Source of the DNA: Bacilli bacterium
GTDB lineage: Bacteria; Bacillota_I; Bacilli_A; RF39; UBA660
Direction of reading: 5' to 3'
Length of the DNA: 13,459 bases
Assembly (NCBI GenBank): GCA_017411235.1
Contig: JAFPMR010000101.1
Span: 1-13,459, forward strand
Shown here in pieces: positions 1,514 to 13,153 of this stretch; the stretch's first letter is position 1, and each line of letters starts with the position of its first letter. The notes beneath the pieces were generated by a model, which did no database searches, was not told where the DNA came from, and saw only the letters and a list, made by a program, of their open reading frames with translations. The position numbers and the translations under genes were made by a program.

Positions 1514-3643
1514 ATGAAAAAAGTAATTCTTAAAGTAGATGGCATGAGTTGTAGTGCTTGTTCTAATAGGGTAGAAAAGTACTTGAATAAACAAGATGGC
1601 GTAGAAGCTAGTGTTAATTTAGTAATGGCTCAAGCTTTAGTTAATTATGATGAGAATAAAGTTGATATAGATGATTTGGCTAGATTCATAGAAGAATCTG
1701 GTTATAAATATGCTGGTATATATAAAGATGATAAAGAAGAAAAAGATAATCGTAAAACTTATTTATTATTCTTTTTAGTATTAATTATTATCTTTATGAT
1801 ATTTAGTATGGGTCATATGATTCATATACCTTCTTTAATTCATAAATATCCTAGAGTATATGGAATTATTTGTTTAGTATTTTGTATACCATTTGTTATG
1901 TATGGCTTAGATATTTTAGTAAGTGGTATTAAAAAAATAGCTCATCCTAATATGGATAGTTTAGTTAGTGTTGGTGTTATTGCTAGTATAGTTTATAGTT
2001 TAATTAATTTAATACTTGGGGATGTACATCATTTGTATTTTGAATCAGCAGCAATGATTATTTTCTTTATTAAATTAGGTAGATATATAGATGGTAAGAG
2101 TAAAGATAAAACTAAGGAAGCTTTAAAAGAATTAGTTGTTATTACACCATCTTCTGCTTTAACAAAAAGTGGTAAAGAAATAACAATAGATGAAGTTAAT
2201 GAAGGAGATTTATTAGCTTGTAAAGCTGGTATGAAAGTAGCAGTAGATGGTGTTATTAATTCTGGTTCTGCTTATTTTGATGAAGTTTTTATAACGGGTG
2301 AATCTAAACCAGTTAAGAAAGAAAAAGGAGATAGAGTAATTGCTGGATCTATTAATTTAGATGGTTATATAGAATATGAAGCAGAATCTATTGGACCTAA
2401 TTCTACTATTTCAGAAATAGTTAGATTAGTAGTAGAAGCATCTAATACAAAGATGAAATTACAAAGAACAGTAGACAAAGTAGCAAGTATTTTTGTACCA
2501 AGTATTTTTATTATAGCTTTAATATCTTTTTGGATATATATAATTATTGGTAAAACATTTAATGAAAGTATTTTAACTTTTATTACTGTATTAGTTGTAG
2601 CATGTCCTTGTGCTTTAGGACTTGCTACACCTTTAGCAATAGTAGTTAGTGAAGGAACTAGTGCTAAGAAAGGTATTTTAATTAAGAGTAGTGAAGTATT
2701 AGAAAATGTAAGTAAATGTGATACTGTTGTCTTTGATAAGACTGGTACTTTAACTTATGGTGATCTTAGAATTAGTAAAGTATTTAATTATTCTAAATAT
2801 GATGAATCTAAATTACTAAGTATTGTAGGTAGTATGGAAAAATTAAGTACACATCCTATTAGTAAAGCTTTTAAAGAAGGTAATAGTAAGGTAACTGATT
2901 ATAAGAACTTAGATGGTATTGGTATTACTGGTATGATAGGTAAACACAAGTATTTTATTGGTAATAGTAAGATATTTGATAAAGCTAAAGTAGAGAATGA
3001 ATATACTAAAGATGAAAATGAATTAGTTAATGATGGCAATAGTATTGTTTATGTTATAGAAGATAAGAATGTTATTGGTTTAATTGGTGTTAGAGATGTT
3101 ATTAGAGAAGAAAGTGTAGATACTATTAAAGAGTTAATTAAGATGAAAAAAGATGTTGTATTACTTTCAGGAGATAATGAGATAACATCTAATGTAATTG
3201 CTAAAAATCTAGGTATTAAGAAAGTTATAAGTAATGTAATGCCTAAAGATAAACAAAAGTATATTAGTGAATTAATTCATTTTAGTCATAAAGTTATGAT
3301 GGTTGGAGATGGTATTAATGATGCTCCAGCATTAGAAACTGCTACTGTAGGAGTATCACTAAATGGTGGTACTGATATAGCAGCTGATAGTAGTGATGTT
3401 ATATTAATTCAAGATGAATTAAATAAAGTAGTGGAATTATTTAAGATAAGTGATAAAACTATTAAAATCATTAAAGAGAATTTATTCTGGGCATTTATTT
3501 ATAATGCTTGTATGATACCAATAGCTATCGGAGTATTTAAGAGTTTTGGTTTAAGTATTAATCCAATGATAGCTAGTGGTGCTATGATGTTAAGTAGTTT
3601 ATGTGTTGTATTTAATTCTTTAAGATTAAGGAAAACAAAATGA
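1514..3643 (+). CDS. copA: Cu(+)-exporting P1B-type ATPase, CopA-like
   Basis: A 709-residue heavy-metal ATPase that would pump Cu(I) (or Ag(I)) out of the cytoplasm at the cost of ATP. Order of parts: one N-terminal HMA domain with GMSCSAC (10-16); paired hydrophobic segments from about 83 to 190; the actuator domain with TGES (261-264); the metal-site helix with CPC (364-366); the phosphorylation site DKTGTLT with Asp408; the P1B-specific HP (447-448) in the nucleotide domain; and the hinge GDGINDAP (598-605). After the P-domain, YN (663-664) and MxxSS (691-695) complete the Cu(I) set known for P1B-1 pumps, which argues against Zn/Cd/Pb specificity. The size is slightly short for CopA because there is a single HMA domain. 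Shine-Dalgarno AGGAGGG precedes ATG 1514. The TGA stop overlaps the sortase start (ATGA). No copper chaperone or regulator gene is present in the window. Confidence 0.93.
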   Translation: MKKVILKVDGMSCSACSNRVEKYLNKQDGVEASVNLVMAQALVNYDENKVDIDDLARFIEESGYKYAGIYKDDKEEKDNRKTYLLFFLVLIIIFMIFSMGHMIHIPSLIHKYPRVYGIICLVFCIPFVMYGLDILVSGIKKIAHPNMDSLVSVGVIASIVYSLINLILGDVHHLYFESAAMIIFFIKLGRYIDGKSKDKTKEALKELVVITPSSALTKSGKEITIDEVNEGDLLACKAGMKVAVDGVINSGSAYFDEVFITGESKPVKKEKGDRVIAGSINLDGYIEYEAESIGPNSTISEIVRLVVEASNTKMKLQRTVDKVASIFVPSIFIIALISFWIYIIIGKTFNESILTFITVLVVACPCALGLATPLAIVVSEGTSAKKGILIKSSEVLENVSKCDTVVFDKTGTLTYGDLRISKVFNYSKYDESKLLSIVGSMEKLSTHPISKAFKEGNSKVTDYKNLDGIGITGMIGKHKYFIGNSKIFDKAKVENEYTKDENELVNDGNSIVYVIEDKNVIGLIGVRDVIREESVDTIKELIKMKKDVVLLSGDNEITSNVIAKNLGIKKVISNVMPKDKQKYISELIHFSHKVMMVGDGINDAPALETATVGVSLNGGTDIAADSSDVILIQDELNKVVELFKISDKTIKIIKENLFWAFIYNACMIPIAIGVFKSFGLSINPMIASGAMMLSSLCVVFNSLRLRKTK

Positions 3644-4323
3644 AAAAGTTTAAGTATTTAAAAGTATTTTTTCTAGTATTGATGTTAATAGGACTTAGTG
3701 GTTTATTACTATGGAGAGATGATAATACTAGAGTTAAAAAGATAGTATCTAATGTAGGAGATTATCTAATATTAGATAATGATAGTTATAATATTAAAGA
3801 AGAGATTAAAGATTTAAATAATGACACAGTAGGGTGGTTAAAAATAGATGGAACTAGTATAAATTATCCAATAGTACAAGGTAATGATAATAAGTATTAT
3901 TTAACACATGATTATAGTAAGAAAAAGAATAGTGCTGGTTGGATATTTATGGATTATAGAAATTCTATGAAAGATCAAAATATTGTTATTTATGGTCATC
4001 ATCGTAAGGATGGAATTATGTTTGGTGATGTAGATAAATTAATGAAGAAGAAGTTCTATGATAATAATGATGGTAAGATTCTTTTAGTAATAAATGATGA
4101 AAATATTTATTACCAAATATTTAGTGTTTATAAAGCTGAATCTAACTCTAATTATAATCAAAGAAATTATGATGATTTTTCTCTGATGTTAGAAGAATTC
4201 AAGAATAGAAGTAGTATTAAATTTTCTAGTGATTTAGAGGGTGTAGAGCAAATAATTACCTTATCTACTTGCCATGATAATAACAAAGATAGATTGGTAG
4301 TTCATGCTTACAAATTAATGTAA
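3640..4323 (+). CDS. srtB: Class B sortase
   Basis: A 227-residue membrane-anchored transpeptidase that cleaves a C-terminal sorting signal and joins the protein to peptidoglycan. One N-terminal membrane segment (about 7-25) is followed by the extracellular catalytic domain. Class B hallmarks are YPIVQGNDNKYYLTHDY (76-92), FMDYRN and IYGHH. The catalytic triad is visible: His120 (YGHH), Cys211 (TLSTC) and Arg218 (DRLVV). Its ATG lies within the last codons of copA (ATGA overlap), so translation is probably coupled to copA; the Shine-Dalgarno would be the AAGGAAA inside the copA end. The next gene downstream, after a terminator, encodes a protein ending in NPKTWD, a motif of the NPxT type used by class B enzymes, and this is its likely substrate. 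Note that the sortase shares a transcript with a copper pump and not with its substrate. Confidence 0.93.
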   Translation: MKKFKYLKVFFLVLMLIGLSGLLLWRDDNTRVKKIVSNVGDYLILDNDSYNIKEEIKDLNNDTVGWLKIDGTSINYPIVQGNDNKYYLTHDYSKKKNSAGWIFMDYRNSMKDQNIVIYGHHRKDGIMFGDVDKLMKKKFYDNNDGKILLVINDENIYYQIFSVYKAESNSNYNQRNYDDFSLMLEEFKNRSSIKFSSDLEGVEQIITLSTCHDNNKDRLVVHAYKLM

Positions 4324-4344
4324 AGGGGTTTAAAAACCTCTTTT
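4322..4344 (+). terminator. Intrinsic terminator after srtB
   Basis: Stem AAAGGGGTT (4322-4330) / AACCTCTTT (4335-4343) with one G-U pair and a four-base loop, followed by T. It begins at the srtB stop codon and separates the sortase transcript from the surface operon. The T-tail is short, so read-through into the surface operon is possible. Confidence 0.75.
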
Positions 4345-4348
4345 AATA

Positions 4349-4357
4349 TGTTATAAT
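4349..4357 (+). promoter_or_regulatory. Extended -10 promoter of the surface (TasA/SipW) operon
   Basis: TGTTATAAT has the TGn extension and TATAAT at 4352-4357. It lies only a few bases after the srtB terminator. The hexamer at -35 distance (TTTAAA) falls inside that terminator and matches poorly. A transcript start near 4364 would give a leader of about 20-30 bases. Confidence 0.55.
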
Positions 4358-4382
4358 TTTTCATATAGTAGATGATTCGGAG

Positions 4383-5483
4383 GTGGTTCGATATTGTGCT
4401 AGTAAGAAGAGATTATTCTTTCTAGGATTAGCATTCTTTGTAGTGATGTGTATTTCTGGGATTTATTCGTTATCTAATGAAATAAATGATACAGAGACTA
4501 CATTGTCTACAGGAGCTGTTGAAATTGAATTAAAAGAATATAACGGCAATGATGAACTGTTCTCAGAAGATGGAAAGTTAGTAATGCCGGGCGAGGAGAT
4601 TTCATTAGTCCCAAGAGTTAATAATCTCGGTATTGAATGCTATTTAAGAGTTAAAATTACTTACACAATAGATAGTGAAGAGATAAATGAAATAGATTAT
4701 ATAAATGGTAATTATTCTTCTTGGAATAAAGAAGATGGTTATTACTATTACGATTCAGTTTTAGAAAAAAATGGATCCGTTGATTTATTTAATAATGTTT
4801 CAATACCTGATAATTTACTAAATGAATATCAAGGTAATGAAGTTAAAGTTAGAATAGTGGTGGAAGCTGTACAAGCCAAGAACTTTGATGGTAATTGGGA
4901 TGAGGTAGAAATATTAGATAGTATTAATAAGACTTATGATATTGATGGCTCTGGTAGTTCTACTGTTATATATGTAAATGGTGCAGAAAACCATGTTAAA
5001 ACTGATGATGGATTCTTTGATAGTTTAGGTGGTTTATTACCAGGAGATAGTGTTAGTGAAACAATAACTATCTTAAATAGTAGTAAAGACGAAAATAGTT
5101 ATCTCTTAACAATCGATAATGATTTAAGTGATGACGAAAAGAAACTGCTAGAAAAATTCAAACTAGTTATTAAAGATAGTGATGGTAATGAAGTAGTAAG
5201 TACCGACTTGAGTGATGCTTCAGAACATCTGTTAGGTACTTTTGGAGCTAATAAGGGAGATACTTACACGATTGAAGTATTACTACCTAAAGAAGCTAAT
5301 AACGAAGTTAGTAAGCTTCTAGCAAAATTAAAATGGAGTTTCTCATTAGAAGTTATTTCTCCTGGAGAAAATCCAAAGACATGGGATTTAAAATTTGACC
5401 TGTCATTAACATTGTTCTTATTTTCAGCTTTAGGACTTCTTATTGTTCTAATACTGGAAAGAAGATATAAAGAAGAAAATTAA
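4383..5483 (+). CDS. Two-domain TasA/camelysin-like surface protein with C-terminal sortase signal NPKTWD
   Basis: A 366-residue cell-wall protein. The N-terminus is a short basic stretch and a hydrophobic segment (11-30), then the SipW-type substrate pattern around DTETTLSTGAVEIEL (36-50). Two related beta-rich domains follow: about 36-185, with VMPGEEISLVPRVNN (67-81) and ECYLRVKITYTI, and about 190-325, with LLPGDSVSETITILNS (218-233) and a closing WSFSLEV. The PG-x-x-I/V-x-x-x-x-x-x-x-N pattern is what I know from TasA/camelysin-type proteins. The C-terminus is a sorting signal: NPKTWD (330-335), a hydrophobic span (341-358) and the basic tail ERRYKEEN. Sortase B is the upstream neighbour. 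The start is doubtful: GTG 4383 overlaps the strong GGAGG (4379-4383) and no in-frame start codon stands at normal distance from it. A role as wall anchor of a TasA-like fibre is inference. Confidence 0.8.
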   Translation: MVRYCASKKRLFFLGLAFFVVMCISGIYSLSNEINDTETTLSTGAVEIELKEYNGNDELFSEDGKLVMPGEEISLVPRVNNLGIECYLRVKITYTIDSEEINEIDYINGNYSSWNKEDGYYYYDSVLEKNGSVDLFNNVSIPDNLLNEYQGNEVKVRIVVEAVQAKNFDGNWDEVEILDSINKTYDIDGSGSSTVIYVNGAENHVKTDDGFFDSLGGLLPGDSVSETITILNSSKDENSYLLTIDNDLSDDEKKLLEKFKLVIKDSDGNEVVSTDLSDASEHLLGTFGANKGDTYTIEVLLPKEANNEVSKLLAKLKWSFSLEVISPGENPKTWDLKFDLSLTLFLFSALGLLIVLILERRYKEEN

Positions 5484-5504
5484 AAAAAGAAAGAGGAAAA
5501 AATT

Positions 5505-6098
5505 ATGAATAAGAAAAGAACAATAATCGCAGCTATAGTATTATTGCTAGTACTATTAGTTGGAGGAGCTATAGCATATTTTACAGATGAAACTGATCCT
5601 GTAACAAATACATTTACATTAGGTAAAGTTTCAATCACTTTAACTGAACCAAATTGGGTTACTACAGATTCTGATAATAATGGAGTTCCTGATGTAGCAG
5701 AAAAATTAGTGCCTGGAGATTCATTACTAAAGAACCCAACAGTTACTGTTGATGCAGATAGTAACGATGCATATGTATTCGTTAAAGTAGAAGTTCCATG
5801 TGTTGGAAGTAAAGAAGTATTTACTTATGATGTTACTGATACAAAATGGACAGTTATTCAAAATGGTGCATGTAGTTCAGAAACAGGAGCAGCTGTTAAA
5901 GTTTATGGTTATAGTGATGCTTTAGAAGCAGAAAAACATGTAACATTATTTGAAAGTGTTACTTTAGTTAACTTATCAAATGAAGAAGCTCAACAATTAG
6001 CTGGTAATATTGATATGCCTGTAAAAGCATTTGCTATTCAAGCTGATAACGTTGAAGGAGCAACTGCTGCTGTTTGGAATGCTAATTTTAATGATTAA
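5505..6098 (+). CDS. TasA/camelysin-like secreted subunit with SipW-cognate signal peptide
   Basis: A 197-residue exported protein. The signal segment is NKKRT plus a hydrophobic run (7-25) ending GGAIAYFTDETDP; the pattern AYFTD-x-x-x-x-x-N-x-F-T-L-G-K-V is the SipW-cognate signal class found on TasA and camelysin relatives. The mature part has an acidic loop DSDNNGVPD (55-63) resembling a calcium-binding DxDxxGxxD loop, then LVPGDSLLKNPTVTVDAD (68-85), the PG-x-x-x-x-x-P element of the family, and VFVKVEV. Two Cys (99 and 123) could form a disulfide. TasA polymerises into matrix fibres and camelysin is a surface protease-like relative; I see no sorting signal here, so a fibre or matrix subunit is the better guess. 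It starts 21 bases after the previous gene with a weak AGAGGA Shine-Dalgarno and is followed 8 bases later by sipW, which should process it. Confidence 0.85.
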   Translation: MNKKRTIIAAIVLLLVLLVGGAIAYFTDETDPVTNTFTLGKVSITLTEPNWVTTDSDNNGVPDVAEKLVPGDSLLKNPTVTVDADSNDAYVFVKVEVPCVGSKEVFTYDVTDTKWTVIQNGACSSETGAAVKVYGYSDALEAEKHVTLFESVTLVNLSNEEAQQLAGNIDMPVKAFAIQADNVEGATAAVWNANFND

Positions 6099-6106
6099 TA
6101 ATTAGT

Positions 6107-6646
6107 ATGAAGGTAATAAAAGGCTTAATTAACGTATTAACTACGTTAATTATTGTCGTTGGTGTAATATTCATCGGGCTTTACATTTGTGGCATTACAC
6201 CATATGTTGTATTATCTGGTTCGATGGAACCAACGATTAAAACAGGAAGTTTATGCTTTATTAATAAGCATACAAAATATGAAAAAATAAAAGAAAAAGA
6301 TATTATAGCTTTTAAAATGAGTAATGGTACTCTAGTTACCCATAGAATAATTAGTATTGCTGATGATGGTTTTGTTACTAAAGGAGATAACAACGATAAT
6401 CAAGATGGTTTCTCTAAAAAAGACAAATACGTTGGTAAGAATATTTTCTGGATACCTAAAGTTGGTTATGTAGTTAAAGCTTTTCAAACTACAAAAGGTA
6501 AACTTATCTTAGGTACTTGTATAGTTTTATTAATTGCAGCTGGCTTCTTAATTGGTGATGATAAAAAGAAAGTTTCTAAAGATAAGGAACTTACTTTAGA
6601 GATTACTAATACTGATATTTTAAAAGGTAAAAAATTAAAAAAATAG
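6107..6646 (+). CDS. sipW: SipW-type (ER-type) signal peptidase I
   Basis: A 179-residue membrane-bound serine protease that removes signal peptides from TasA-type proteins. The N-terminal membrane helix (about 8-30) is followed by LSGSMEPTIKTG with nucleophile Ser39, and THRI with His79 in the place where bacterial-type SPases have Lys. That Ser/His arrangement defines the ER-type (SipW, archaeal and eukaryotic) enzymes. Next is TKGDNND (91-97) with the conserved acidic residue. A second membrane helix lies at about 131-150, then a Lys-rich cytoplasmic tail. The gene lies in the middle of a four-gene operon, between its likely substrates. The upstream sequence TTAATAATTAGT has no recognisable Shine-Dalgarno, so translation probably depends on coupling to the gene in front, which ends 8 bases earlier. 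Confidence 0.92.
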   Translation: MKVIKGLINVLTTLIIVVGVIFIGLYICGITPYVVLSGSMEPTIKTGSLCFINKHTKYEKIKEKDIIAFKMSNGTLVTHRIISIADDGFVTKGDNNDNQDGFSKKDKYVGKNIFWIPKVGYVVKAFQTTKGKLILGTCIVLLIAAGFLIGDDKKKVSKDKELTLEITNTDILKGKKLKK

Positions 6647-6662
6647 AAGGAGATGATGAAAT

Positions 6663-9026
6663 ATGAAAAGACTAAATGTACTTGGTATTCTTTTGGTTGC
6701 TTGTATTTCATCATTTTTCTTTGTAAATAAAGTTGAAGCTTTGTTTAAGACTTCAACTGAATCAAAAGTAAATAGTTTTACTATTCAAGACAAAGGTTTC
6801 TATGTTGTTACACATAAACAAATGGATTTGAATGGTGAATATACAATTGTTGATTCTCCTAATGATGAAGGAGAAGCTTTACTTGGTACAACAATAGCTT
6901 TAAGTCCTAGAAGTTATACAGGTTTTAAACAACCTGATCTACAAACTATAGTTATTGGATTTGGTACTCAAGAAGTAACTTATCTTTATGAAAGAGAAAT
7001 GTATTTACTGATTATCGAAAATGAAAATTATGTTACAACGAATACACCATCTGGACAATATTATTATGGTACAAATATTTATTTGTTAGCTGATGAGACT
7101 GATTCTCAAGGTAAAACATTTAAGAAATGGTCAGATGGCTCTATTGATAGAGGTCATACATTTGAAATGACTCAAGATGTAACTATTAAGCCAATATATG
7201 ATGATCCATTTATTGTAGAGTTTGAAACTAATGGTGGTTCTCCAGCAATTCCTTCTAGGGATATAGATCCTGGAACATCAATTGGTAGTCTTCCAGTTGT
7301 AACTAGAGATGATTGTGAATTAAGTGAAGGAAGTTATGATGATCGTAATTGTACATATGCCTATAAATTCTTAGGATGGTATTTAGAACCAACATTTGAG
7401 ACTCAAGTAAATGAAGATTATGTTCCAACTGAGAATGTTGTGTTATATGCTAAGTGGACAAAAGTATATTATCATGATGATGAAGAAGAGTTTAAAGGAC
7501 ATAATTTCCTTGATTCTGAAATAGCTTTATTTAGTGAAGAAAATGCTGGTAAAGACTTCATCGTTAGATTCACTTTAGATGAAATGAAGAATGGCCAAGG
7601 TGTTGGTGGAGAAAAACGTGCTGTGTTATTCTCTGACTTATATGAAAATGGACCAATATTCCCTGGTACAATGTTTAGATATGATTCAGATAACAAAATA
7701 AAAGACTTCCAAATTGTTGCCAATGTTAAGAATGTTAATAATACGTATGGTGGTAGATTAACAAGTACTGTCAGTGACTTTGAAGTTGGTATGACATTTG
7801 TCTTAATGCGTGAATCTGGTAAGTTATATTATAGTATTGATGGTGGAGAACACTTCATTAGATACAATGACTTTAGTGGATTTAATAGTTACTTTGATAC
7901 TACAGCAACATTTGGTGGTGAGTATAATGCTGATAATACACCATATCGTTACTTTAAAGGTACAATGTCTAATATGACTGTTGAAATAATTGAACCTAAG
8001 ACATATACTGTTCACTTTGATCCTAATGGTGGAACTGGTATGATGTTAGATCAAGAGTTCCCATTACATGGTTCAGCGCCATTAACTGCTAATAGTTATG
8101 AAAGACTAGCTTATATGTTTAGTCATTGGACAACTAATGCTGATGGTACTGGTGATAGATATGACAATGAGGAAGAAGTTGCTCAACTTGGGGCAGAAAA
8201 TGAAGTAGTAACATTATATGCTCAATGGGTAGATGCACCACGTTATACTGTTCATTTTGATGCTAATGGTGGACAAGGAACAATGGATGATCAATTATTT
8301 ATCTATAGTGTTGAACAAAATCTTACAACTTCAACATTAACTAAAGAAGGTTATGTATTTGGTAGTTGGAATACTTCTCCAGATGGTTCTGGTACTAGAT
8401 ATGAGAATGGTCAAGCTGTTAAGAACTTATCATCAACTGATGGAGGTGTAGTTACTCTATATGCTCAATATGTTAGAGCAAGTTATGTTCTTATGGGTGA
8501 AACAACATTCGATGGAGTAGATGATTACATAAATACTGGAATTAATATATTTGATGAAGATAATTATGATAGAGATTTTGATATTAGTTTCACAATTGTT
8601 GAAATTGGTCCTGCATTAAATCCTGTTAATGAAAACCAAACAACAGTTATGAATGCTAAAGATGAAACTAAGACTCCTGATGAAAACAAACGTGTTCCTG
8701 GATTTGCTACTCGTTTCGATTGGCAAAATACAAATAATATTCACTTTGTATCACATTGGGAGAATAATGAAAATCATGATTATACATTAGCTTCTACAAA
8801 TGCACCAGTTGAAGTACTATATAAACGTAGAGGTGGTATTGTTACTGTTGAATATACATATAATGGTAGAACAGTAACTAAAGATGTATATAATCAAAAT
8901 CTAGCTCAATTAGAACCTTATTCACCACTAAATATTGTATTTGGTGCTGCTCAAGATAAGGATCAGAATTATATTAGATTCTTCAATGGAACAATAGCAG
9001 ATATTAGAGTTGAAGTATTTGATTAA
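6663..9026 (+). CDS. Large secreted adhesin-like protein with InlB-type repeats and two LamG-like modules
   Basis: A 787-residue exported protein. A signal segment (4-26, ending KVEA) is followed by LFKTSTESKVNSFTI (27-41), matching the pattern after the signal peptide of the TasA-like neighbour, so it is a likely SipW substrate. Then, in order: a MucBP-like region (about 45-110, ending VTYLYER); a region with WSDG and FEMTQDVTIKPIY (112-180); an InlB B-repeat (List_Bact_rpt; 182-266, FETNGGSP...LGWYLEP...VVLYAKW); a LamG/concanavalin-like module (about 275-445, ending YFKGTMSNMTVEI); two more InlB-type repeats (447-523 and 527-603, each YTVHFDxNGG...TLYAQ); and a second LamG-like module (608-787, starting FDGVDDYINTG and ending FFNGTIADIRVEVF). 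There is no C-terminal sorting signal or membrane anchor. Such domains usually bind carbohydrate or host protein, so an adhesive role is inferred. AAGGAG lies 10 bases before the ATG. Confidence 0.85.
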   Translation: MKRLNVLGILLVACISSFFFVNKVEALFKTSTESKVNSFTIQDKGFYVVTHKQMDLNGEYTIVDSPNDEGEALLGTTIALSPRSYTGFKQPDLQTIVIGFGTQEVTYLYEREMYLLIIENENYVTTNTPSGQYYYGTNIYLLADETDSQGKTFKKWSDGSIDRGHTFEMTQDVTIKPIYDDPFIVEFETNGGSPAIPSRDIDPGTSIGSLPVVTRDDCELSEGSYDDRNCTYAYKFLGWYLEPTFETQVNEDYVPTENVVLYAKWTKVYYHDDEEEFKGHNFLDSEIALFSEENAGKDFIVRFTLDEMKNGQGVGGEKRAVLFSDLYENGPIFPGTMFRYDSDNKIKDFQIVANVKNVNNTYGGRLTSTVSDFEVGMTFVLMRESGKLYYSIDGGEHFIRYNDFSGFNSYFDTTATFGGEYNADNTPYRYFKGTMSNMTVEIIEPKTYTVHFDPNGGTGMMLDQEFPLHGSAPLTANSYERLAYMFSHWTTNADGTGDRYDNEEEVAQLGAENEVVTLYAQWVDAPRYTVHFDANGGQGTMDDQLFIYSVEQNLTTSTLTKEGYVFGSWNTSPDGSGTRYENGQAVKNLSSTDGGVVTLYAQYVRASYVLMGETTFDGVDDYINTGINIFDEDNYDRDFDISFTIVEIGPALNPVNENQTTVMNAKDETKTPDENKRVPGFATRFDWQNTNNIHFVSHWENNENHDYTLASTNAPVEVLYKRRGGIVTVEYTYNGRTVTKDVYNQNLAQLEPYSPLNIVFGAAQDKDQNYIRFFNGTIADIRVEVFD

Positions 9027-9108: not shown

Positions 9109-9132
9109 AAATATCAACTTGGAGAGATGCTT

Positions 9133-10347
9133 ATGAAAGAGAAGATTAAAAATAAGTATGTTTATTGGGGCTTAACTGCTTTTTGTGTTTTAGCTGCTAT
9201 AGTATTCTTTTTCTTCTGTTTATATAGATGGGTTAGAATTAAAGCATTAATAGTTAGAGTTTTTAATATCTTCTTACCATTTATATATGGTTTAGCTATA
9301 GCATATATTTTAAATCCAGTCGTTATATTCTTTGATAATAAAGTGTTTAGAAAACTATTAAAGAATTCTAAGAATAAAGAAAAAGTATCTAGATATTTGT
9401 CTTTAACAATGGCTTCTATTATATTTATTGGTATTTTAGTTGGTATCTTTAGTTTACTTGTTCCAACTATGATTAAGAGTTTTGAAACTTTAGCTAGTAA
9501 TATTAATTTATATTTAAATGATAGTAAAATGTTTTTATTATCTTTCTCTAGTAATACTAAGTATGCTGAAATAATAGAATCTTTTTATGAAAATATTTCT
9601 AGTACTGTAGTAGGTTGGGTATCTACTGATAATTTGGAACATTTATTCTTAATTGTTAGAGAAGGAGTATTTAGTACTTTAAAGATTATTTATAACTTAG
9701 TAATAGGTTTTGTTATATCTATATATGTTTTATATGATAAAGAGAAATTTAAAGGTCAAATAAAAAAATTATTATATTCATTATTTAAAGAAGAAACTGT
9801 TGAAGGTATTTTAAATAGTGCTAGAAATACTGATAAGGTATTTGGTGATTTCTTTAATGCTAAGTTAATAGATTCTTTAATAGTAGGTATTATTTGTTTT
9901 ATAGGTATGATTATCTTTAAAATGCCATATGCTACAATGATTTCTGTTATAGTTGGTGTTACTAATATTATTCCTTATTTTGGACCTTATATTGGTGCTG
10001 TACCTTCTGCATTGATTATTTTATTAGTTGATCCTTCTAAGTGTATTTGGTTCTTATTATTTGTCTTTGTATTACAACAATTTGATGGTAGTGTATTAGG
10101 ACCTAAAATACTTGGTAGTAAGACTGGTTTAAGTAGTTTCTGGGTATTATTCTCATTATTAGTATTTGGAAGTATATTTGGTGTTGTAGGTATGATTATC
10201 GGGGTACCAATATTTTCAATTATTTATTCTATAGTTAATAATAAATTAAAGAAGAGATTAAAGGATAAGAATCTACCTGTAGATTCTAAAGATTATATAG
10301 AACCTAAAAAAGTTAAAAAGAAAATAAAAAAGATGCTAACGAGTTAG
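9133..10347 (+). CDS. AI-2E family transporter (PerM/YdiK-type, formerly UPF0118)
   Basis: A 404-residue polytopic membrane protein. I place the start at ATG 9133 and not at the in-frame ATG 9127, because 9127 directly abuts the Shine-Dalgarno GGAGAG (9121-9126) while 9133 lies 6 bases from it. Recognised family signatures: GLAIAYILNPVV in the first membrane pair, GVTNIIPYFGPYIGAVPSA in the conserved C-terminal half, then VLGPKILGSKTGLSSFWVL and GVVGMIIGVPIFSIIY. About eight hydrophobic segments are visible. Named members export autoinducer-2 or act as Na+/H+ antiporters, and most are uncharacterised, so no substrate is claimed. The C-terminal tail is very Lys-rich. The stop codon lies inside a bidirectional terminator shared with the convergent gene, and the two reading frames overlap by 12 bases. 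Confidence 0.9.
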   Translation: MKEKIKNKYVYWGLTAFCVLAAIVFFFFCLYRWVRIKALIVRVFNIFLPFIYGLAIAYILNPVVIFFDNKVFRKLLKNSKNKEKVSRYLSLTMASIIFIGILVGIFSLLVPTMIKSFETLASNINLYLNDSKMFLLSFSSNTKYAEIIESFYENISSTVVGWVSTDNLEHLFLIVREGVFSTLKIIYNLVIGFVISIYVLYDKEKFKGQIKKLLYSLFKEETVEGILNSARNTDKVFGDFFNAKLIDSLIVGIICFIGMIIFKMPYATMISVIVGVTNIIPYFGPYIGAVPSALIILLVDPSKCIWFLLFVFVLQQFDGSVLGPKILGSKTGLSSFWVLFSLLVFGSIFGVVGMIIGVPIFSIIYSIVNNKLKKRLKDKNLPVDSKDYIEPKKVKKKIKKMLTS

Positions 10348-10358
10348 CACCTTTTTTT
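10334..10358. terminator. Bidirectional terminator overlapping the stops of two convergent genes
   Basis: Stem TGCTAA (10334-10339) / TTAGCA (10344-10349), loop CGAG. On the plus strand it is followed by CCTTTTTTT; on the minus strand by TCTTTTTT. Both stop codons (plus 10345-10347, minus 10336-10338) are written in the stem itself. Confidence 0.8.
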
Positions 10359-10674
10359 CTGTGTTATGATAAAGTCTTCTAATTAATTCTATTCCCTCTG
10401 AGCAGTATATTTCAGTCATTATGTGTATAGTTGGTTCGCTACTACCAATGTAACGAGGACAACTATCTATAATTGCTTTTAACTCTTCGTCTGAAGCTCC
10501 GTTTGCTTTAGCACTTAAAAGTTTTACAAATGTTTGTAATACAGCTGGTCCTCTTAATGTTGTAACATGATAAGCTATACATTGTTTCCAGGCATTTTGT
10601 TCTTCTTGTACTATTAAGTCTTTTGATATTGCGTAGAAATCTTTTGCTAATTCTCTTCTTTTTAGAATATTCAT
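10336..10674 (-). CDS. Small soluble protein of unknown function under a manganese riboswitch (112 aa)
   Basis: The protein appears wholly helical and cytoplasmic: no signal peptide and no membrane span. The N-terminal half is basic to neutral (NILKRRELAKDFYAISKDL), with a Trp at 29. Three Cys (32, 72, 91) and three His (36, 84, 103) are spread along it; C32-x-x-x-H36 and the CPRY and HIMTEIYC segments could supply metal ligands, but no known metal motif is complete. I do not recognise the family. The start is ATG 10674, 8 bases after a G-rich Shine-Dalgarno (AAGGGGGG). It has its own promoter inside the hpt end and a yybP-ykoY riboswitch leader, so expression should rise with Mn(II). Because read-through from hpt also enters the leader, hpt and this gene may form a conditional operon. 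A role in manganese handling is inference from the leader only. Confidence 0.8.
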   Translation of the reverse strand: MNILKRRELAKDFYAISKDLIVQEEQNAWKQCIAYHVTTLRGPAVLQTFVKLLSAKANGASDEELKAIIDSCPRYIGSSEPTIHIMTEIYCSEGIELIRRLYHNTEKKVLTR

Positions 10675-10705
10675 ATTTCATTCCCCCCTTATCATAAGAG
10701 CAATG

Positions 10706-10738
10706 AAAAAACTCTTATGAATTTATATTCATAAGAGT
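10706..10738 (-). terminator. Riboswitch-controlled intrinsic terminator (expression platform)
   Basis: A perfect 12-base-pair inverted repeat, ACTCTTATGAAT / ATTCATAAGAGT, with a four-base loop, followed on the minus strand by TTTTTT. Its 5' arm contains CTCTTA (10732-10737), which is also the 3' strand of the aptamer's P1 helix, so aptamer and terminator exclude each other. It is probably also the only terminator for hpt transcripts. Confidence 0.85.
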
Positions 10739-10813
10739 CTTGTTCGATTAAGTTTAATCCGGTATTCGTGTTGACGAATTAAACCATATCTCTATGGGAA
10801 CTACTCCCTCTTA
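10732..10813 (-). promoter_or_regulatory. yybP-ykoY manganese riboswitch aptamer (compact form), ON switch
   Basis: Read on the minus strand: P1 TAAGAG (10808-10813) pairs with CTCTTA (10732-10737). It is followed by the conserved GGGAGTAG (10801-10808). P2 is CCATA-GAGA-TATGG (10784-10797), closed by a GNRA tetraloop. P3 is TTTAAT / ATTAAA (10778-10783 / 10753-10758), framing the conserved CGTCAA (10771-10776) and ACCGG (10759-10763). The end carries CAAGAC (10737-10742). These blocks, in this order, are those of the yybP-ykoY family that binds Mn(II). Only 7 bases separate CGTCAA from ACCGG and about 10 bases stand where P4 would be, so the distal P3 and P4 arms are minimal or missing. Mn binding would stabilise P1, take up the terminator's 5' arm and allow transcription. 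Confidence 0.85.
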
Positions 10814-10822
10814 AGTATCTTA

Positions 10823-10851
10823 ATTATATCATTTTTTGAGCATTTTTTCAA
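10823..10851 (-). promoter_or_regulatory. Promoter of the Mn riboswitch and 112-aa gene, inside the hpt 3' end
   Basis: On the minus strand TTGAAA (10846-10851), a 17-base spacer and TATAAT (10823-10828), with the TGA of an extended -10 being the hpt stop codon itself (10829-10831). It is the best-scoring promoter by eye in the window and gives a leader beginning just ahead of the aptamer. Confidence 0.75.
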
Positions 10852-11407
10852 TTTTAGCTTGGTATTCTAATACTGTTTTTTCTTCGTCTCTATCGCTTAT
10901 AAAACAGTGAATAGCAGGTAGGTTACGATACTTTTCATCGTAGTCCATTCCATAACCAATTACGAAAAGGTTAGGGATAGTAAAACCAGAATAATCAGGT
11001 GTCATTTTTACTACTCTTCGATCTGGTTTATCTAATAATGTACATATTTTTAAACTAGCAGGTTTTTCTCCTTTTAGATAATCTACTAAATATGATAGGG
11101 TTCTACCAGTATCTATTATATCTTCTACTATTAAGATATGTTTACCAGTTACTGGTTCATCTAAATCTAGTTTCATTTTTATTACACCTGTACTATTAGT
11201 TCCTTCGTAACTAGATAATCTCATACATTCGACGATAACATTTTTTCTTAAGTATTTAGTTAAGTCAGCAGTAAAGTAGATTGATCCTTTTAGTAGACAG
11301 ATTACTGTTAGATCCTTTCCTTTATAGTCGTTTTCAATTTGTTTTGCAAGTTCTTTAATTCTTCGTTGGAGCATTGATTTAGTAATTAATACTTTTTTCT
11401 TTTTCAT
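10829..11407 (-). CDS. hpt: Hypoxanthine(-guanine) phosphoribosyltransferase
   Basis: A 192-residue cytoplasmic enzyme of purine salvage that joins hypoxanthine or guanine to PRPP, giving IMP or GMP and pyrophosphate. Motifs: LLKGS (38-42), the PPi loop; SSYEG (65-69), the flexible catalytic loop; the PRPP-binding VEDIIDTGRTL (94-104) with the paired acidic residues; LLDKP with Lys127 of the purine site; and GYGMDYDEKYRNLP (151-164), the C-terminal signature of the HPRT group, which separates it from Xpt and Apt. Length is normal for the family. ATG follows GGAGG with a 4-base gap. The gene is divergent from the purine permease and so forms a salvage pair with it, but it has no guanine riboswitch of its own. 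The TGA stop is followed directly by TATAAT of the next promoter, and no separate terminator follows. Confidence 0.94.
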   Translation of the reverse strand: MKKKKVLITKSMLQRRIKELAKQIENDYKGKDLTVICLLKGSIYFTADLTKYLRKNVIVECMRLSSYEGTNSTGVIKMKLDLDEPVTGKHILIVEDIIDTGRTLSYLVDYLKGEKPASLKICTLLDKPDRRVVKMTPDYSGFTIPNLFVIGYGMDYDEKYRNLPAIHCFISDRDEEKTVLEYQAKIEKMLKK

Positions 11408-11481: not shown

Positions 11482-11500
11482 TTAGGTGAAAAATAAAGAT

Positions 11501-11569
11501 AGTCATATATGTTCGAAAATATGGTTCGAATGTTTCTACCTATTCACCGTGAATGAATAGACTATGACT
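11501..11569 (+). promoter_or_regulatory. Guanine/hypoxanthine (purine) riboswitch aptamer
   Basis: All parts of the purine aptamer are present. P1 AGTCATA (11501-11507) / TATGACT (11563-11569) is 7 perfect pairs. P2 TTCGAA (11512-11517) / TTCGAA (11525-11530) has the loop AATATGG. The joining segment TGTTTCTACC is present, and P3 CTATTCA (11540-11546) / TGAATAG (11554-11560) has the loop CCGTGAA. The base before the P1 3' strand, C at 11562, corresponds to C74 of the B. subtilis xpt aptamer, which pairs with guanine or hypoxanthine; adenine riboswitches have U there. This agrees with the purine permease downstream. Confidence 0.95.
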
Positions 11570-11625
11570 TGATGTTATGCTACTTAGATACCCATAGTCT
11601 ACAGAATTTTTGTAGGCTTTTTTAT
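11558..11625 (+). terminator. Guanine riboswitch expression platform: antiterminator and terminator
   Basis: The terminator is AGTCTACA (11596-11603) / TGTAGGCT (11611-11618) with one G-U pair and a 7-base loop, ending in TTTTTT. A competing 9-base-pair antiterminator forms between TAGACTATG (11558-11566) and CATAGTCTA (11593-11601). That antiterminator uses the aptamer's C74 region and half of its P1 3' strand, and half of the terminator's 5' arm. Ligand-bound aptamer therefore frees the terminator: an OFF switch. Confidence 0.9.
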
Positions 11626-11656
11626 TTTTCAAAAAATATTTTATGGAGGTGTGTTT

Positions 11657-13153
11657 GTGGCTAGACAAACGAAAAAAGAAGTCGGTAAATTTGATGCCTT
11701 TTTCGAGATTACTAAAAGAAAATCGACAAAAAGAATTGAAATAGTAGCCGGCTTAACAACATTCTTGGCGATGGCTTATATTTTGATCGTCAATCCAAAT
11801 AATATCTTGTGGGGAGGCACAGCGGATCCTAGATTCTCTAGCGTATTTATTGCTACTGCGTTAGGTGCATTTATAGGTACGTTGTTGATGGCATTACTTG
11901 CTAAAATGCCACTTGCTCAAGCACCAGGTATGGGTCTTAATGCGACTGTTGGAACAATAGTAGGAGGTGCACTTGGTATTGCTTACTCATATGGTAATGC
12001 AATGGCATTAGTATTTGTAAGTGGTATTATTTTCTTACTATTATCTATTATTCCTTGTGGAAGAAACAAGGATGGTAAATTAATCTCTTTAAGAGAGAAA
12101 ATCTTTGAAGGAGTACCAAAAGCAGTACGTACAAGTATTTCTGTTGGTATTGGTTTATTTATTGCATTTATAGGATTACAAAATGCACATATTATAGTAG
12201 ATAATCAATTTACTTTAATTCAATTAGTAGATTTTAATAATAAAGCAGCATGGGCTGCAGGGGGAGTAGCAAGATTTGCTACAGTAGCACTTTTTGGTTT
12301 AATTGTTATTGGTGTACTAGAACATAATAAAGTTAAAGGTTCTGTTATTTGGGGTATGTTAGCAGCTACTTTATTAGCTATTCCTTTAGGAGTTGCTGAT
12401 ACTTCAATTTTAGCTGGTAAGGTTGATGGAATTAGTTGGAAATTCTGGGAGAATATTGCTAACTTCTTCAAAGGTGGAGAAAACTCAGTATTCTTAGCAT
12501 TATTCCATGGAGGATTTAATTTCCCTAAAGGAGCAGCAATGACTTCTATTATGTTAGTTGTTTCATTCTGTATGATTGATATGTTTGATACAATGGGAAC
12601 TGTAGTAGGTTGCTGTAAGAATGCTAAATTAATGGATGAAGATGATAAACCTATTAATTATGGTCAAATGATGTATTCAGATAGTATTGCTACTGTTGCT
12701 GGTTCTGTTTTAGGTACTAGTACAGTTACTACATTTGTTGAATCAGGAGCTGGTGTTGCTGCTGGTGGTAAAACTGGTTTAACTGCTTTAACAACTGCAA
12801 TATTATTCTTATTATCAATTTTCTTATTACCATTATTTGCATTTATACCATCTGCTGCTGCAGCAAGTGCATTAATCTATGTTGGTGTATTAATGATGAA
12901 AAATGTTGTTGATATTGATTTTGATAATGTTAAACAATCAATTCCTGCATTTGTAACTATTATTACAATGGTACTTGCATATTCAATTACTGATGGTATT
13001 GGAATGGGAATTATTTCATTCGTAGTATTAGATTTAATTATTTGGTTAATTGATTTAATAAGAGGCAAGAAAGCTAAATTAGAGATTACTTGGGTAACTT
13101 TAATAATATTTATTCTATTCCTAGTTTACTTCTTAGTGCCAACAGTTATATAA
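11657..13153 (+). CDS. pbuG: NCS2-family (AzgA/PbuG-like) guanine-hypoxanthine permease
   Basis: A 498-residue membrane transporter with about 12-14 hydrophobic segments that would import purine bases with protons. The true start is most likely GTG 11657 (MARQTKKEVG): the Shine-Dalgarno GGAGG (11645-11649) lies 7 bases away, whereas the in-frame GTG at 11651 is almost on top of it. Signatures of the AzgA/PbuG branch: AYILIVNPNNI; QAPGMGLNATVG; SVGIGLFIAFIGLQNAHIIV; DMFDTMGTVVG; and GTSTVTTFVESGAGVAAGGKTGLTA. These separate it from the xanthine/uracil branch (PbuX, UraA). The guanine riboswitch in the leader supports purine substrates and predicts shut-off when guanine is plentiful. The hpt gene is divergent and would trap the imported base as a nucleotide. 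A terminator follows directly. Confidence 0.93.
   Translation: MARQTKKEVGKFDAFFEITKRKSTKRIEIVAGLTTFLAMAYILIVNPNNILWGGTADPRFSSVFIATALGAFIGTLLMALLAKMPLAQAPGMGLNATVGTIVGGALGIAYSYGNAMALVFVSGIIFLLLSIIPCGRNKDGKLISLREKIFEGVPKAVRTSISVGIGLFIAFIGLQNAHIIVDNQFTLIQLVDFNNKAAWAAGGVARFATVALFGLIVIGVLEHNKVKGSVIWGMLAATLLAIPLGVADTSILAGKVDGISWKFWENIANFFKGGENSVFLALFHGGFNFPKGAAMTSIMLVVSFCMIDMFDTMGTVVGCCKNAKLMDEDDKPINYGQMMYSDSIATVAGSVLGTSTVTTFVESGAGVAAGGKTGLTALTTAILFLLSIFLLPLFAFIPSAAAASALIYVGVLMMKNVVDIDFDNVKQSIPAFVTIITMVLAYSITDGIGMGIISFVVLDLIIWLIDLIRGKKAKLEITWVTLIIFILFLVYFLVPTVI

Follow-up and report, generated by a model that had tools for sequence, protein, structure and literature searches.

The 13,459-nucleotide contig JAFPMR010000101.1 of a Bacilli bacterium, which we refer to as the window, carries on its minus strand a leader that we read, with a probability of about four in five, as a reduced Mn2+ riboswitch of the yybP-ykoY class that lacks helix P4 and acts as a transcriptional ON switch for a gene of 112 codons. 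The leader belongs to a complete small transcription unit located between the 3' end of hpt and the end of a convergent gene for an AI-2E-family transporter; the unit consists, in order, of a promoter-like site, the structured leader, a terminator, a ribosome site, the 112-codon open reading frame (ORF) and a closing terminator (Table 1), and the gene appears to be monocistronic. The promoter is a near-consensus site with an extended -10 element and agrees with the consensus at 11 of 12 positions, which is a consensus match and not a mapped start. The first-pass annotation of this DNA, made from the sequence alone, had already proposed a manganese riboswitch here, and the features that it listed are all present: the consensus promoter in front (TTGAAA-17-TATAAT), the four conserved blocks in the order given, the P1 helix that shares CTCTTA with a 12-base-pair terminator (the UAAGAG/CUCUUA helix overlaps the stem at 10738-10711), and a 112-residue product with three Cys, three His and no membrane segment, its highest 19-residue hydropathy being 0.92. 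The assignment to the yybP-ykoY class has likewise held, through a covariance-model match of 45.9 bits and covariation in the helices.

The four blocks, GGGAGTAG (10808-10801), CGTCAA (10776-10771), ACCGG (10763-10759) and CAAGAC (10742-10737), follow one another on the minus strand; taken as a pattern, the first three are found at a single place in the window and in none of 200 dinucleotide shuffles. For comparison, leaders have been pulled by motif from hits of the Rfam family RF00080: 76 loci were scanned, namely 75 hits and L052, a leader in a lactococcal-looking prophage contig whose host we presume from its resemblance. These loci gave 65 distinct leaders (six loci had no leader recognised by the regular expression, and five were duplicates), of which 46, L052 included, were aligned, while 19 were omitted for length, near-identity or set size; one aligned leader, L108:374-464, is a second regular-expression site beside an RF00080 hit. 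Helices P1.1, P1.2, P3 and P3b were assigned from the alignment columns, and the covariance model, R1, was trained without the window leader. In the 46-leader alignment, 94.3% of cells are paired; column shuffling lowers this share to 76.6%, and sliding the partner leaves no more than 51.6%. Two-sided changes occur in 21 of the 24 pairs of the structure. Across the leaders, the first pair of P1.2 is G-C, A-U or G-U and the second is C-G or U-A; the window leader has the minority covariant form, a C-G to U-A change that is present in 6/46 leaders.

R1 finds a single match in the 13,459-base window at E<=10, located at 10815-10731 (45.9 bits, rough E-value 8.9e-12), and with it P1.1, P1.2 and P3 with their covariation; the outermost R1 pair of P1.1 is non-standard in the window leader. 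In a held-out test on 26 sources, the model matched 25 times in 24 of them, L001 and L002 being the two without a match; since one match was in R1, L157 is the same as the R1 row L150, and L105 is the same as L106, these correspond to 22 distinct leaders outside the training, with scores of 36.5-75.5 bits. As a side observation, the minus strand of L108 matches the Mn2+ riboswitch twice, at sites separated by about 1.1 kb (1533-1629 and 374-464; 75.5 and 70.6 bits). Sequence and covariation establish the aptamer with its helices, the ORF, and the fact that P1.1 and the terminator overlap. The leader is also far more stable than its shuffles (z -5.4), an excess that we put down mostly to the terminator.

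The core blocks of the wider yybP-ykoY class (L1 GGGAGUA, L3 UCA...C, CYGG and AGAC) are all found in the window leader, which retains L1, L3, CCGG, AAGAC, P1.1, P1.2 and P3; the L1 columns GGGAGUA are invariant in 46/46 aligned leaders. The metal-site nucleotides of the Lactococcus lactis riboswitch include U39, C40, A41, U44, C45 and G9 in PMC9190785; by alignment, the window leader has the same letters at U39, C40, A41, C45 and G9, and an A at U44. The adenosine that contacts Mn2+ is A41 in L. lactis and A48 in X. oryzae, according to PMC6754395. The L3 letters of the window leader, UCGUCAACAC, are identical to those of leader L211 (CGTCAACAC), which is located before a CaCA-type gene.

What sets the window leader apart is its reduction. 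P4 is missing, so that the leader takes a three-way junction form and not the four-way-junction form of yybP-ykoY; P4 is also missing in L142, L149, L150 and L094 (the core of L150 is the same as that of L149, and L150 is not counted separately), and it is therefore not universal in the class. P3b and its loop amount to six letters, GAATAC, with one possible pair (G10767-C10762), compared with 9-17 letters in all 46 aligned leaders, and the core from GGGAGTAG to AAGAC, at 72 nucleotides, is among the shortest, the minimum in our census (below) being 70. The L. lactis yoaB leader and RF00080 thus resemble the window leader in L1, L3, P1.1, P1.2, P2, P3, the overlapping terminator and the Mn-contacting A, but differ from it in that the window leader has a seven-nucleotide linker for P4, about one pair in P3b and a target that is not an exporter. 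The closest forms, L142, L149 and L150, share the GUUC/GAAY P1.2, the short P2 and the linker that replaces P4, but keep a P3b hairpin of 9-10 letters.

The switch itself would reside in CUCUUA, which is both the 3' strand of P1.1 and part of the 5' arm of the terminator, the 11-base-pair core of which has an energy of -11.3 kcal/mol. According to PMC6754395 and PMC9190785, Mn2+ stabilises P1.1 and thereby blocks the terminator, and this terminator mechanism is lost with the A48U change. By analogy with the riboswitch class, the ligand would be Mn2+ and the direction ON. Transcription would begin at the promoter inside the end of hpt; at low Mn2+, a weak P1.1 would give up CUCUUA to the terminator hairpin, with a stop at the U-run, while at high Mn2+ the metal would bridge L1 and L3 via A10772, P1.1 would be locked, the terminator would be blocked, and a single-gene mRNA for the 112-residue protein would be made.

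The P1.1/terminator segment occurs a third time, as CTCTTATGA, a copy that could pair with the freed 3' arm of the terminator. A repeat of the terminator arm of at least eight nucleotides is found downstream in 3/120 leaders, the 120 being those of the 153 census leaders in which the script saw such a terminator. The ribosome site GGGGGG is predicted to be mostly paired in four folded contexts, with or without the aptamer, and an alternative fold that frees it has an energy of -13.2 against -14.5 kcal/mol; because the site is mostly paired either way, we leave translational control through this third copy as an idea.

Table 1. Features of the transcription unit and of the convergent gene (window positions).
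Feature	Position	Strand	Basis or detail
Promoter within the hpt 3' end	10851-10823	-	TTGAAA 10851-10846, 17-nucleotide spacer with TG extension, TATAAT 10828-10823
Reduced yybP-ykoY-class (Mn2+) riboswitch aptamer (probable)	10815-10731	-	R1 match
P1.1 switch helix, 5' strand UAAGAG	10813-10808	-	pairs with CUCUUA 10737-10732
L1 block GGGAGUAG	10808-10801	-	sequence pattern
P1.2, 5' strand GUUC	10801-10798	-	pairs with GAAC 10745-10742
P2 hairpin CCAU-AGAGAU-AUGG, 4 base pairs	10797-10784	-	sequence; final G may extend P3 instead
P3, enclosing L3 and CCGG	10783-10753	-	UUUAAU 10783-10778 with AUUAAA 10758-10753
A10772	10772	-	aligns with Mn2+-sensing A41 of L. lactis (UCA41 of L3)
Seven-nucleotide linker CUUAAUC in P4 position	10752-10746	-	alignment with L142, L149, L150, L094
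Intrinsic terminator	10738-10706	-	stem 10738-10711, 12 base pairs including basal A-U; U-run 10711-10706
Third copy CTCTTATGA of the P1.1/terminator segment, 9 nucleotides	10700-10692	-	between U-run and ribosome site
Ribosome-binding site GGGGGG	10688-10683	-	8 nucleotides upstream of ATG
Orphan 112-residue ORF	10674-10336	-	helical throughout by prediction; C32 H36 C72 H84 C91 H103
Closing terminator	10357-10326	-	overlaps ORF end
AI-2E-family gene	9127-10347	+	convergent with the 112-residue ORF

The 112-residue protein is probably real and probably soluble. The GC content of the ORF by codon position (0.43/0.37/0.17) is similar to that of the neighbouring genes, and of the three forward frames only the annotated one has a positive codon score (+0.19), the others scoring -1.48 and -1.10. 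Two homologues have been found among 5.8 billion proteins, P0001 (97% identity, seven member sequences) and P0002 (85%, four), and a profile search to E 10 has returned the same two and no more; all three Cys and all three His are common to the three proteins. Residues 1-66 of P0002 are identical to those of the window protein and all 17 differing columns lie from residue 67 on, which suggests either that the N-terminal half is strongly constrained or that a segment has been exchanged. Against Pfam, the best E-value is 0.052, under the cut-off; NCBIfam, PHROGs and the sequences of the Protein Data Bank (PDB) give no match at E<=1 in each case. The contigs of GTDB together with IMG/VR yield no confirmed relative, a tblastn search of plasmid and phage sequences no match at E<=1, and a hidden Markov model of the family no likeness among the 21,417 open frames of the fetched riboswitch loci (best E 3.9). 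We have found no published report of the protein in a literature search limited to open-licence papers. AlphaFold2 predicts six helices (predicted local distance difference test score 71), for which the PDB holds no convincing fold match, a missing match that does not show a new fold; on the predicted helices, C32-x3-H36 and H84-x3-E88-x2-C91 could form a candidate metal site.

Mn2+ is seldom coordinated by Cys. For this reason, we consider that the protein more probably acts on another metal, a thiol or a partner protein than as a direct buffer that stores Mn2+; tentatively, it may be a cytosolic helper in the response to Mn excess, and not an exporter. MntS of Escherichia coli, compared here without sequences, is similarly a small protein linked to the Mn2+ level, but it is induced at low Mn2+ according to PMC4361602, the opposite of what is expected for the 112-residue protein.

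A target of this kind is unusual for the class, as is seen from a census of 153 distinct related leaders, which were taken from the fetched loci and not from all R1 matches, and which therefore favour high scores. The first ORF was chosen by a simple rule and classified by sequence motif, and ten of the proteins were checked with Pfam; three loci gave no aptamer recognised by the regular expression, and three leaders have no ORF behind them. By motif, the first gene is TerC-type in 37 leaders, GDT1/UPF0016 in 36, a cation P-ATPase in 36 and CaCA in 12; among the others are two LemA genes, 27 unclassified genes (eight of which read, by eye, as further transporters) and the three leaders without a gene. 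Pfam has confirmed, as non-exporters, LemA (L128, L144), an M48 peptidase (L143), DUF5685 (L124, with which L132 has been grouped by eye), DUF6376 (L197) and Spo0M (L237, over partial length); it has assigned OAD_beta to L263 and found no match over its cut-off in L139, L126 and L224. The families DUF5685 and DUF6376 are named as being of unknown function. A minority of non-exporter targets thus seems to exist in the class, linked to the switch by position only and in some cases behind a second hairpin, and given these six Pfam-checked proteins, a target such as ours is unusual and not unprecedented. From the first-pass proposal of a manganese riboswitch with its effector, the class, the antitermination platform and the small, soluble-looking ORF, which is probably real, have stood; the claim of a 'new kind of manganese-responsive effector' was overstated, both in view of the non-exporter targets of the census and because three Cys fit an Mn2+ buffer or chaperone poorly on chemical grounds.

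Several results weigh against our reading. The most direct is that RF00080 (Rfam 15), which the first-pass annotation had expected to match, gives no match in the window at E<=1 and none on the 201-base stretch 10660-10860 at E<=10; we attribute this failure to the Rfam model. The RF00080 alignment models the P1 region as unpaired, and clear relatives also score under its gathering cut-off of 45 bits: the L052 leader reaches 38.7 bits, six of seven relatives fall below the cut-off at 24.5-42.6 bits (L094 42.6, L142 25.6, L149 24.5), and L211 gives no match at E<=0.01. RF00080 is, for both of these reasons, a poor judge, and we have dropped a match to it as a requirement for the class, since clear relatives fail it too. 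In the 398 genomes of the phylum of Clostridium cibarium, RF00080 has matches in 62 at E<=0.001, eight of them above the cut-off, and R1 has matches in 235; up to ten candidates per genome were scored for R1 against six for RF00080, and the two counts are not strictly comparable. The current Rfam model probably leaves many short Mn2+ riboswitches without annotation. By the Rfam rule, the window leader is no member of RF00080, and we place it in the wider yybP-ykoY class as a variant of reduced form.

The score of the window leader in R1 is also low for a true leader, as only L138 (36.5 bits) is lower among the held-out leaders and the next one stands at 53.0 bits; moreover, the seed leaders of R1 were filtered by motif, and its E-values deserve limited trust. 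The last point follows from 80 viral loci of IMG/VR that were picked by the three-block pattern: besides L052 (71 bits), a training member, four other places match at E<=10, with 34.4 bits in L047 and then 16.2, 11.5 and 11.4 bits. The match in L047 (10558-10676, plus strand), a GC-rich viral sequence that has the three blocks, is taken for chance because the AAGAC block is absent, and yet it reaches an E-value of 1.1e-6. Together with the failure of RF00080, a pattern-picked sequence that can reach 34 bits is what speaks for the blocks of the window being a chance match with no riboswitch at all, to which we give only a very slight chance. The window leader scores higher without having been picked; both P1.1 and P1.2 carry covariant letters, P1.1 is overlapped by a terminator, and the leader lies between a promoter-like site upstream and an ORF downstream. 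The absence of the block pattern from all 200 shuffles, together with the R1 match, has led us to reject a chance origin of the blocks.

The computed energies favour the terminator (-32.0 kcal/mol) over the forced aptamer (-17.5 kcal/mol), which fits an OFF default; tertiary contacts do not enter the computation, and the ON state would therefore need Mn2+ tertiary contacts or a timing that lie beyond it. The missing P4, and a P3b that is shorter than in all 46 aligned leaders, count against our reading as well and are, together with a target that is not an exporter, the features that speak for a yybP-family aptamer tuned to a different metal, with the Cys/His protein being part of the biology of that metal. 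The review PMC7266159 states that some yybP RNAs have probably changed their specificity, which would account for target genes at odds with Mn2+, and it expects such variants. Retention of the Mn-site letters noted above (U44 being A), the CaCA-type gene that follows the same L3 letters in L211, and the GDT1/UPF0016-type genes (by motif) that follow the P4-less leaders L142, L149 and L094 make such a change of metal improbable here.

A small RNA is the other product that the leader might serve, the ORF being short-lived or non-functional and the leader mainly yielding a terminated transcript, as has been described for SSRC10. This family (RF02617) gives the best Rfam score on 10660-10860, 27.2 bits with an E-value of 0.0018, below the family's gathering score of 56. 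Its GGGAGU, CGUCAA, CCG and GAC blocks, with a terminator behind them, are shared with the window leader, but in Streptococcus pyogenes it lies between a gene for a putative calcium transporter and a hypothetical gene. PMC3675131 describes SSRC10 as a small RNA detected by Northern blotting, with the signal assigned to the complementary strand and both flanking genes on the top strand. As an observation apart, SSRC10 may itself be a terminated Mn2+ riboswitch leader, perhaps that of the calcium transporter gene, which has been filed as a small RNA; the Northern signal on the complementary strand argues against this. The ORF is questionable in that it has two homologues only and a codon score that is low among its neighbours (0.18-0.60) and little above that of the best spurious ORF (0.13), a further point against our reading; a functional gene is favoured by the ribosome site, the GC content by codon position and the closing terminator, and by the divergence of P0002, limited to residues 67 onward, which is expected under protein-level constraint or segment exchange. 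We hold the small-RNA explanation to be improbable as well, slightly more so than a change of metal.

If our preferred reading, the P4-less Mn2+ switch, is correct, an orphan soluble protein whose gene stands alone behind such a switch offers a clean handle on uses of Mn2+ other than export; exporters dominate the targets of the census, and Mn2+ sensing beyond export is little explored. The window aptamer would also indicate how far the class can shrink with its core kept. Since many short members escape the Rfam model, annotation of the Mn2+ regulon in these bacteria is probably incomplete, with the LemA, M48, DUF5685, DUF6376 and Spo0M proteins among those concerned. A bolder proposal, which we consider rather unlikely, is that the 112-residue protein represents a new family of cytosolic proteins that are induced by excess Mn2+ and protect the cell without export, for example by its N-terminal half guarding a target that is prone to mismetallation; the leader may add a second, translational layer, in which the CTCTTATGA copy, next to the sequestered ribosome site, competes for the terminator arm once that is freed.

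With the AI-2E-family neighbour as bait, two distant Clostridium loci were found (37% and 31%); among the matches listed from the 398 genomes, the best identity for Hpt is 56%, and for the xanthine/uracil permease, compared with 32 of these genomes, it is at most 48%. The unit of this permease stands back to back with hpt, and its gene (11651-13153) is preceded by a purine riboswitch (RF00167, 84.5 bits, 11483-11584, plus strand). On the other side, the plus strand at 3640-9026 encodes a class B sortase, a camelysin-like protein (PF12389), a SipW-like signal peptidase and a 787-residue protein, perhaps a fibre or matrix locus.

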